Source of the DNA: Gluconacetobacter tumulisoli
GTDB taxonomy: Bacteria > Pseudomonadota > Alphaproteobacteria > Acetobacterales > Acetobacteraceae
Assembly: GCF_014174155.1 (NCBI RefSeq)
Contig: NZ_JABEQM010000001.1
Span: forward strand, 186,001-250,000
Direction: 5' to 3'
DNA length: 64,000 nt
In this document: positions 10,783 through 13,475 of the stretch, piece by piece
Position numbering within the stretch: the first letter of the stretch is position 1
Layout of the letters: every line of letters starts with the position of its first letter
Notes under the pieces: generated by a model
What the model was told of the DNA's origin: nothing
What the model saw: only the letters and a program-made list of their open reading frames with translations
Databases searched by the model: none
Made by a program: the position numbers and the translations under genes

Positions 10783-11376
10783 ATGGGCGGCACGGATATC
10801 GAACGGCTGATCGCGCTGCTGGCGCGGCTGCCGGGTCTGGGTCCGCGTTCGGCCCGTCGCGCGGCGCTGGCCCTGCTGCGGCAGCCCCAGACCCGCATGC
10901 TGCCGCTGGCGCAGGCGATGGAGCAGGCGGCGCGCGCGGTGAAGACGTGTGCGACCTGCGGCAATCTGGACACGCGCGACCCCTGCGGCATCTGCGCCGA
11001 TCCGGCGCGCGATCGCGGGCTGGTCTGCGTCGTCGAGACGGTGGGCGACCTCTGGGCGCTGGAGCGTGCGGGCGTGCATCGCGGCGTCTATCAGGTGCTG
11101 GGCGGCACGCTGTCGGCGCTGGCGGGGCTGGGGCCGGAGGATTTGAATGTCGGCCCGCTGTTCGCCCGGCTGGAGCAGGGCGGCGTGCGGGAAATCATCC
11201 TGGCCCTGGGCGCCACGGTCGAGGGAGCGACGACCAGCCACTGGCTGCAGGACCGCCTGGCGCGGTTCGACGTGCCCGTCAGCCGCGTCGGGCAGGGCGT
11301 GCCGATGGGTGGCGCGCTGGACGTCCTGGATGACGGCACGCTGGCGGCGGCGCTGCTGGCGCGCCGGCCGGCCTGA
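10783..11376 (+). CDS. recR: Recombination mediator protein RecR
   Basis: RecR works with RecF and RecO to load RecA at gaps and breaks. It has 197 aa, the usual length. A helix-hairpin-helix spans about residues 8-34 (LPGLGPRSARRAAL). The zinc finger uses Cys56, Cys59, Cys68 and Cys71 (CATC...CGIC). A Toprim domain follows from about residue 79 (VCVVETVGDLWALER). The C-terminal segment GVPMGGALDVLDDGTL is characteristic. The next gene begins 7 bp after the stop. Confidence 0.96.
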   Translation: MGGTDIERLIALLARLPGLGPRSARRAALALLRQPQTRMLPLAQAMEQAARAVKTCATCGNLDTRDPCGICADPARDRGLVCVVETVGDLWALERAGVHRGVYQVLGGTLSALAGLGPEDLNVGPLFARLEQGGVREIILALGATVEGATTSHWLQDRLARFDVPVSRVGQGVPMGGALDVLDDGTLAAALLARRPA

Positions 11377-11383
11377 AAGACAC

Positions 11384-12175
11384 ATGAGCATGTGGCCCAT
11401 TCCCCCTTCCATTCCCCGGGTGGCGTTCGTGACCGGCGGGGCGATCCGGCTGGGCCGCGCGATGGCGCTGGCGCTGGCGGATGCCGGATTTTCCGTCGTC
11501 ATCCATTATCGTTCGGCCGAGGACGAGGCGCGACGGACGGTGGCCGACATCGCGGCGCGCGGGGTGGGCGCCGTCATGCTGCGCGCGGACCTGTCGCGCG
11601 AGGCCGAGGTGACGCCCCTGCTGGCGCGGGCGGCCGAGTCGCTGGGGCCGGTCGGGGTGCTGGTGAACAATGCCAGCACGTTCGAGCGCGATGAATGGGA
11701 CGATGCGACCCGGGCCGGCTGGGACGCGCATCTGGAGCCCAACCTGCGCGCGCCCTTCGTCCTGATGCAGGATTTCGCCCGCCACCTGCCCGAGGGCGCG
11801 GAGGGCATGGTGCTGAACATGCTGGACGAGCGCGTCTGGTCGCTGACGCCGCATTTCGTCAGCTATACCGTGTCGAAATCGGCATTGTGGACCCTGACGC
11901 GCAGCATGGCGCTGGCGCTGGCGCCGCGGCGGATCCGCGTGAACGCGATCGGGCCGGGCCCGGCGCTGCCCAGCCCGCGCCAGTCGGCCGAGCAGTTCGC
12001 CCGGCAATGCGCGTCGGTGCCGCTGGGCGTTGGCACCTCGCCGGACGAGGTCGCGCGGGCGGCGCTGGCGCTGCTGTGCCTGCCGTCGGTGACGGGACAG
12101 ATGCTCGCCCTGGATGGCGGGCAACACATGCAATGGTCGCCGGCCCTGCGTCCCGGCCTGGCCCCCGAGGAATAA
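11384..12175 (+). CDS. Short-chain dehydrogenase/reductase, probable pteridine (dihydromonapterin/dihydrofolate) reductase
   Basis: This is an NAD(P)-dependent SDR of 263 aa. The cofactor motif is TGGAIRLG (17-24), where the Arg-Leu-Gly form is typical of pteridine reductases such as PTR1 and FolM. NNAS follows at 95-98. The catalytic pair is Tyr161 and Lys165 (YTVSK). The usual catalytic Ser is absent. Instead Asp148 (NMLDERVW) sits exactly 13 residues before the Tyr, as in the Asp-Tyr-Lys triad of PTR1. folB, a folate or tetrahydromonapterin pathway gene, starts 11 bp downstream, which supports a role in reducing pterins or dihydrofolate. The exact substrate cannot be read from sequence. 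The ATG at 11384 is used; the frame is open further upstream but inside recR. Confidence 0.85.
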   Translation: MSMWPIPPSIPRVAFVTGGAIRLGRAMALALADAGFSVVIHYRSAEDEARRTVADIAARGVGAVMLRADLSREAEVTPLLARAAESLGPVGVLVNNASTFERDEWDDATRAGWDAHLEPNLRAPFVLMQDFARHLPEGAEGMVLNMLDERVWSLTPHFVSYTVSKSALWTLTRSMALALAPRRIRVNAIGPGPALPSPRQSAEQFARQCASVPLGVGTSPDEVARAALALLCLPSVTGQMLALDGGQHMQWSPALRPGLAPEE

Positions 12176-12186
12176 GACATACCGCA

Positions 12187-12588
12187 ATGGCCATCTTTCC
12201 CGCCTGGCCGGAGCAGCCGCCGCTGCGCCGCGTCTTCCTCAAGGACATGGTGCTCGACGCCAATATCGGCATCTATCCGCACGAACAGGGCGTGACCCAG
12301 CGGATCCGGGTCAACATCTCGTTCGGAGTCGCCGACGAACCTGGCCTGGCGGTCGGACGCGATGATCTGAGCCGTACCGTCTCGTACGAACGCATCGTGC
12401 TGATGGTGCGCCGGATCATTGCCGAGGGCCATGTCCGCCTGGTCGAGACGCTGGCCGAACGGATCGCCATCGGCGTCCTGGCCGACGATCGGGTGGCGGT
12501 CGTGCGCGTGCGTGTCGAGAAGCTCGATATCTTCGACGATCTGGACGCGGTGGGGGTGGAGATCGAACGGCGGCGGCCGGTGCCGTGA
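12187..12588 (+). CDS. folB: Dihydroneopterin aldolase
   Basis: FolB converts dihydroneopterin to hydroxymethyl-dihydropterin in folate synthesis. The protein is 133 aa. Its LKDMVLDANIGIYPHEQ segment matches the start of the family, and VETLAERIA carries the conserved catalytic-region helix. VRVEKLDIFDDLDAVGVEI resembles the C-terminal strand where a Lys is conserved. It follows the pteridine-reductase-like SDR by 11 bp. Its TGA overlaps the GTG start of the next gene (GTGA), so the three genes probably form an operon. Confidence 0.93.
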   Translation: MAIFPAWPEQPPLRRVFLKDMVLDANIGIYPHEQGVTQRIRVNISFGVADEPGLAVGRDDLSRTVSYERIVLMVRRIIAEGHVRLVETLAERIAIGVLADDRVAVVRVRVEKLDIFDDLDAVGVEIERRRPVP

Positions 12589-13475
12589 CGGCGGCGATCC
12601 TGCTGGGTCTTTCCGCCGCACTGTTCTACGGCACCGGGGATTTTCTCGCCGGCTTCGCCAGCCGGGCGATCGGCGTCCTGCGCATGATGTTCTGGAGCCA
12701 GGTCACCGTGTCGGTGGGCATGGCCGCCGCGATGTGCGTGGCGGGCCTGGGGGCGTGGCGGCCCGTCTATGGCGCGGGCTGGGCGGTCTGGGGATGGGCG
12801 ATCGGCTCCACCTTCCTGATCCTGGGGGCGTCGGGCCTGTATTTCCGGGCGTTGCAGGTGGGCCGCTTTTCGGTCGTGACGCCGGTCATGGCCTGCTACG
12901 GAATCGTGGCGGCGCTGTGCGCGGCCGCATTGGGCGAACCCCTTCGGGCGTCGGTGCTGCCGGGGGTGATCCTGGCCATCGCCGGCGGCGTCGTGTCCTC
13001 GATTCCGCCAGCGGGGGCGGGGGGCGACGACCCGGGCGCGACAGTCGCCAGGGGAGGTGGCGAGGGGGTCTGGCTGGCCGCGCTGTCGGCCTGTTTCTAT
13101 GGCGCCGGGTTCTGCGTGCAGGGGCGCTTCGTGACCCCGTACCTGGGGGCACTGGGGACCGTGTGGGCGTTCTATACCGTCGGGATGGTCGTCCTGCTGG
13201 CGGTCGCGCTGCTGATGCGGGGCGACATCACCTTTCCGGGACAGCATTACGGCGCCGTCACCGCGCTGACCGGCCTGCTGTCGGGACTGGCCTACCTGTC
13301 GCTGTCGGTCGCCGCCGGTCTGGGCAGCATCGCCCTGCCGACCGTGCTGTCGTCGCTGACCAGCATGGTAACCGTCCTGCAGGCGCGCCTGATCATCCGC
13401 GAACCGGTGGCGACGCACCAATGGCTAGGAATGGTCGGGGTCCTGGTCGGGCTGGCGGTACTGAACCTGGGATAG
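12585..13475 (+). CDS. EamA/DMT-superfamily membrane transporter
   Basis: This integral membrane protein of 296 aa has about ten hydrophobic segments and two internally similar halves. The first half contains GASGLYFRALQVGRFSVVTPV and the second a matching stretch near SLTSMVTVLQARLI, as in the drug/metabolite transporter superfamily. The substrate is unknown. The GTG start overlaps the folB stop by 4 nt, so it is translationally coupled to folB. That might suggest a pterin- or folate-related cargo, but this is only inference from context. It converges on the FYDLN-acid gene 73 bp away. Confidence 0.85.
   Translation: MTAAILLGLSAALFYGTGDFLAGFASRAIGVLRMMFWSQVTVSVGMAAAMCVAGLGAWRPVYGAGWAVWGWAIGSTFLILGASGLYFRALQVGRFSVVTPVMACYGIVAALCAAALGEPLRASVLPGVILAIAGGVVSSIPPAGAGGDDPGATVARGGGEGVWLAALSACFYGAGFCVQGRFVTPYLGALGTVWAFYTVGMVVLLAVALLMRGDITFPGQHYGAVTALTGLLSGLAYLSLSVAAGLGSIALPTVLSSLTSMVTVLQARLIIREPVATHQWLGMVGVLVGLAVLNLG

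Follow-up and report, generated by a model that had tools for sequence, protein, structure and literature searches.

A PruA/FolM-type pteridine reductase gene beside folB as the most likely candidate for a FolA stand-in in Gluconacetobacter tumulisoli

According to the passages of a 2007 study that deal with the problem, many bacteria, most of them ThyX users, are without a recognisable dihydrofolate reductase, and it was then still to be identified which gene serves the remaining dihydrofolate reduction (PMC1971073). The same passages, together with sections of a 2026 review, give TGX3RXG as the motif of pteridine reductases (PMC1971073; PMC13259868). The motif is found in PTR1 and PTR2 of trypanosomatids, of which PTR1 also reduces fully oxidised pterins (PMC1971073). 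In the sections of the review that treat the bacterial enzymes, PruA of Agrobacterium tumefaciens is described as reducing dihydropterins, not oxidised pterins, with dihydrofolate being no effective substrate; the homologue from B. abortus resembles it in substrate profile, and the P. aeruginosa homologue has its highest activity with dihydrofolate (PMC13259868). The FolM proteins of E. coli and P. aeruginosa are pteridine-reductase SDRs too, set apart from PruA in those sections. For the Brucella FolM structures 5tgd and 5bt9, the structure paper states the substrates as not known. TmpR, a further pteridine-reductase SDR, carries the NCBIfam name bifunctional dihydropteridine/dihydrofolate reductase.

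The window analysed here, a 64,000-nucleotide stretch of a Gluconacetobacter tumulisoli contig, contains an SDR gene whose protein NCBI labels only as "SDR family oxidoreductase". The features relevant to the present analysis, in window coordinates, are as follows.

10783..11376, + strand: gene that we take to be recR-like, 7 bp upstream of the SDR gene
11384..12175, + strand: predicted PruA/FolM-type pteridine reductase (SDR, PRK09134), 263 aa; ATG at 11384, stop at 12173-12175
11432..11455, + strand: cofactor motif TGGAIRLG, residues 17-24; with Arg22 it fits the pteridine reductase signature TGX3RXG
11825..11827, + strand: Asp148 codon, 13 residues before Tyr161
11864..11878, + strand: Tyr161-x3-Lys165 codons
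12128..12172, + strand: residues 249-263, the C-terminal tail, which lacks the D[V/I] motif seen in the Brucella enzyme
12187..12588, + strand: folB, dihydroneopterin aldolase, 133 aa; ATG at 12187

Judging by its sequence, the window SDR is a further member of an already known pterin reductase family. The protein scores 352.9 bits against PRK09134 (NCBIfam), above the cut-off of 281; Brucella FolM (5tgd, residues 23-267) scores 439.2 bits in the same model, and the homologue on Sinorhizobium meliloti pSymB scores 389.1 bits. The score lies below the cut-off of TIGR02685, the Leishmania PTR1 model (111.7 bits; cut-off 321.7), and far below those of the TmpR model (138.7 bits; 325) and of PRK09135 (164.7 bits; 288). 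The closest solved structures, both by sequence and by fold, are those of Brucella FolM (5tgd and 5bt9; 45% identity), which shares with the window SDR the PRK09134 family, the fold, the TGX3RXG motif and the Asp-Tyr-Lys residues. The AlphaFold model used for the fold search has a pLDDT of 87.9, with residues 249-257 and 259-263 below 50; in that search PTR1 of T. brucei ranks 21 (31% identity) and PTR2 of T. cruzi ranks 40 (36%), amid many SDRs. PruA of A. tumefaciens presumably belongs to PRK09134 as well, given its grouping with the Brucella enzyme in the review sections (PMC13259868). The preliminary description had proposed a pterin or dihydrofolate reductase; support for assignment to a pterin reductase family comes from the PRK09134 model, from the closest solved structures and from the signature. 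At the family level, the protein can be predicted with very high confidence to be an NADPH-dependent dihydropterin reductase of the PruA/FolM group; we regard its family membership as close to certain.

The observations from which that proposal had started are borne out in full: TGGAIRLG replaces the usual SDR motif, with Arg22 in a place that Gly usually takes in SDRs; Asp148 stands 13 residues before Tyr161, with Lys165 also present; and folB begins 11 bp downstream of the SDR stop codon. The spacing presumably matches that of the Asp-Tyr-Lys triad of PTR1, and on motif and spacing Asp148 would be the counterpart of the PTR1 catalytic Asp. The signature is rare within the genome and highly conserved across homologues. 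A search of the organism's own genome with the SDR protein gave 28 matches, 27 of which were recovered as ORFs, including the query. The other 26 recovered proteins have Y-x3-K without exception (26/26) and mostly Ser at position -13 from Tyr (20/26), with Asp at -13 in none of them (0/26); within the first 50 residues, G-x3-R-x-G occurs in the query alone among the 27. Across 92 aligned homologues of the class, which represent 92 of the 93 matched genomes, the organism's own among them (a fragment in G002 and a second copy in G071 were left out), Asp148 and Tyr161 are each present in 92/92, Lys165 in 90/92 and Arg22 in 91/91, one further row being gapped. Analogously, the best 80 of 139 relatives in a named collection all have TG-x3-R-x-G (80/80, S or A allowed at the first two positions), and 79/80 have D-x12-Y-x3-K. 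The Arg and Asp signature of this SDR is more than chance.

The pairing with folB is likewise conserved. Among the same best 80 of 139 relatives, the closest named loci being those of Gluconacetobacter azotocaptans and G. johannae (96%), folB lies close downstream of the SDR on the same strand at 76/80. Within the class, 54 of 81 genomes having both SDR and folB carry them adjacent (under 600 bp between matches), on one strand and in the order SDR-folB; in another 7 the two are arranged differently but no more than 3 kb apart, and the remaining 20 have them at greater distances or on separate contigs. Given this conserved order and the gap of 11 bp, SDR and folB are probably co-transcribed.

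The search of the organism's own genome (99.91% complete) for folate genes gave no match for folA, on a search limited to PF00186 that was positive in 8 or 9 of the 14 genomes used as controls. It likewise gave no match for thyA and one match each for thyX, the SDR (E<=1e-50) and folB. By the same folA search, 0/120 genomes of the Acetobacteraceae had a match, 104 of the 120 having a completeness of 90% or more and a contamination of 5% or less. The Gluconacetobacter studied here appears to be without the usual enzyme for active folate. In a sample of 142 genomes of the class, folA was matched in 49, the SDR in 93 (81 over the curated cut-off), folB in 97, thyX in 88, thyA in 42 and phhA in 28; thyX without folA or thyA characterises 81/142 genomes, and folA plus thyA without thyX 40/142. 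As a side observation, thyA follows folA (41/49 genomes with folA vs 1/93 without), and thyX opposes it (7/49 vs 81/93).

ThyX, unlike ThyA, makes no dihydrofolate. Since no FolA was found and ThyX makes no dihydrofolate, a small flux from dihydrofolate to tetrahydrofolate would suffice, and the most likely stand-in for FolA would be the PruA/FolM-type SDR beside folB. In the proposed mechanism, the site formed by Arg22 and Asp-Tyr-Lys would, like that of PTR1, convert the ring of 7,8-dihydropterins to its tetrahydro form, FolB would supply or share the pterin pool, and the SDR would provide the small flux to tetrahydrofolate besides reducing free dihydropterins. A role in dihydrofolate reduction is plausible because folA and thyA are without a match, thyX is present and phhA was not found. 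The presence of the SDR in 50/57 folA-less folB genomes of the class, its place next to folB in most relatives and the succession of thyX, SDR and folB in one genome of the family (G026) add to the case. In our opinion the probability of this role is about even or slightly better; it is reached by elimination, with genome content for it and the assays of reviewed homologues against it.

The suggestion in the preliminary description that the SDR may stand in for FolA fares unevenly: the absence of folA and thyA matches and the presence of thyX favour it; against it, relatives with folA commonly have this SDR too, and homologues are reported in the review to use dihydrofolate poorly. Among the 97 class genomes with folB, the SDR (presence threshold E<=1e-50) occurs in 50/57 without folA vs 31/40 with folA (Fisher p 0.27). 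On the best tree of 92 SDRs, which is weakly supported (8/89 inner branches starred), the SDRs of folA-bearing and folA-lacking genomes interleave; the folA state changes 17 times, of which the starred branches force 3. The idea that the SDR was acquired to replace FolA was rejected, since its presence does not significantly depend on folA and the folA states interleave on the tree.

The 7 folA-less folB genomes without a strong SDR match were searched again at E<=1e-15. One (G048) has, where a contig ends, half an SDR that includes the Arg motif; the copy in another (G129) is divergent, reading TGGGRRLG and having D-x12-Y-x3-K. The signature is absent from the matches examined in G130, G133, G032 and G019; of these, G130 and G133 are nearly complete, folA-less genomes with folB in which no SDR of PruA/FolM type was seen, and they count against the stand-in role. 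In G084 there is a 394-residue frame (L215:319-1500, - strand) in which an SDR-like part without Y-x3-K, with adh_short under its cut-off, is joined to a FolB domain (PF02152, E 1e-18); in appearance it is a fusion of the neighbouring genes SDR and folB. A further 25/142 class genomes have neither folA, SDR nor folB.

Phenylalanine hydroxylase, encoded by phhA, is the classic user of tetrahydromonapterin, and its distribution bears on a competing explanation to which we assign a substantial probability, though one short of even: that the SDR is a PruA-like reductase of dihydromonapterin or dihydroneopterin, making tetrahydropterins for cofactor use or signalling, while another, unrecognised enzyme reduces dihydrofolate. 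The SDR shares its NCBIfam family with Brucella FolM, is conserved alike in folA-bearing genomes, and, in the assays that the review sections report for PruA, free dihydropterins are favoured (PMC13259868). The order of the genes is no argument against such a reductase: the aldolase interconverts dihydroneopterin and dihydromonapterin, as stated in the relevant passage of PMC1971073, so that adjacency to folB fits dihydromonapterin reduction equally. Moreover, phhA is commoner with the SDR (25/93 class genomes vs 3/49 without; p 0.003, kinship not corrected), a difference that within the 97 folB genomes stands at 23/81 vs 1/16 (p 0.11). On the other hand, phhA is unmatched in 68/93 SDR genomes, in 104/120 genomes of the family (16/120 have it) and in the organism's own genome, where known tetrahydropterin users were not found. 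This explanation also leaves the dihydrofolate step without a gene. Of two PF00174 matches in the own genome, the stretch of one was examined and shows no PruR-DcpA pair. This match, a weak one, is to a 170-residue, PruR-sized protein (L224:1321-1833, contig C3), which adjoins genes that by eye resemble those for molybdate transport; no DcpA-like neighbour is seen in the stretch. Reduction of dihydrofolate and of dihydropterins by the one enzyme may also go together: 16 sampled genomes have phhA and the SDR without folA.

It is, by our estimate, very improbable that the substrate of the SDR is an unrelated carbonyl compound and its position near folB a matter of chance. The SDR superfamily is broad, and the NCBI label would accommodate such an activity; the retention of Arg and Asp in the 92 aligned homologues and the adjacency to folB in the class and among the relatives argue against it.

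To return to the possible role of the window SDR in dihydrofolate reduction, a potential structural correlate lies outside the catalytic site. The idea that catalytic residues mark the folA-less members was rejected, those columns showing no difference with folA. Instead, 757 column-residue tests against folA singled out the C-terminal tail. D[VILMAF] near the C-terminus is found in 20/31 folA-bearing vs 7/55 folA-lacking rows, 6 rows with short or cut tails having been dropped; only 1 of the latter 7 comes from a genome with phhA. The motif is present in Brucella FolM, in the S. meliloti homologue and at 2/80 related loci, and is absent from the window SDR: 5tgd ends in ...WETPDIAGITE, the window SDR in ...WSPALRPGLAPEE. 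When folA was simulated on a tree from whose construction the tail had been excluded (3998 of 4000 simulations entered the result), the family-wise p was 0.03 for the combined tail trait, a trait defined post hoc, and 0.08 and 0.10 for its two single columns; an earlier simulation, without correction for multiple tests, gave 0/2000 either way. A test on independent pairs has no power, only 3 being available from the starred branches. The active-site pocket of PTR1 is closed by the C-terminus of the neighbouring subunit. By analogy, it is possible that the tail is linked with substrate choice; the association of tail and folA is a lead only.

The absence of FolA may also bear on a known phenotype. 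In the portions of PMC8744987 reporting disk tests, 97.4% of Acetobacter and Komagataeibacter strains were resistant to trimethoprim whichever of the three media was used; efflux is the cause that the authors suggest, and they avoid the word "intrinsic" in view of one strain's sensitivity on one medium. The words folA and dfr are absent from the main text. Such resistance fits the absence of the FolA target, which, because folA was matched in 0/120 genomes of the family, is a simpler account than efflux. Searches of the open-licence literature found nothing joining trimethoprim, thyX, folA and Alphaproteobacteria, nothing joining dihydrofolate reductase, thyX, FolM and alphaproteobacteria, and nothing relevant-looking for TmpR.

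A broader scheme can be outlined, which we think unlikely to hold as a whole: PRK09134 SDRs would be split by job, being the essential dihydrofolate reductase in FolA-less ThyX lineages; loss of the D[V/I] tail, which may extend into the active site of an adjacent subunit as the C-terminus does in PTR1, would have opened the pocket to the folate tail; and the missing FolA would explain the trimethoprim resistance of acetic acid bacteria. One enzyme family could close much of the missing-dihydrofolate-reductase gap, because 81/142 class genomes have thyX without a folA or thyA match.

Several minor features of the gene surroundings deserve mention. Homologues of genes that we take to be dnaX, ybaB and recR stand upstream of the SDR at 49/80 loci (best 80 of 139). 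On S. meliloti pSymB (L225), the PRK09134 SDR gene adjoins uvrC, pgsA, moaD and moaE, with no folB annotated in the 7.7 kb around it. Among the matches listed in a plasmid search, the best (55%) is on a Tistrella mobilis megaplasmid, in a record without annotation. In the window, a gene at 12585-13475, by eye of EamA type (transporter), overlaps the folB stop codon; it may be a recent insertion, because only two of the 80 related loci (L029 and L065) show such a gene in their flanks. In the flanks of the 80 loci (up to 5 kb) no thyX was found. In a relative from the Acetobacteraceae with a 2.5-Mb genome (G026), by contrast, one strand carries thyX, SDR and folB in succession (L109, G026:C1:308800-312300), and thyX ends some 350 bp ahead of the SDR frame.
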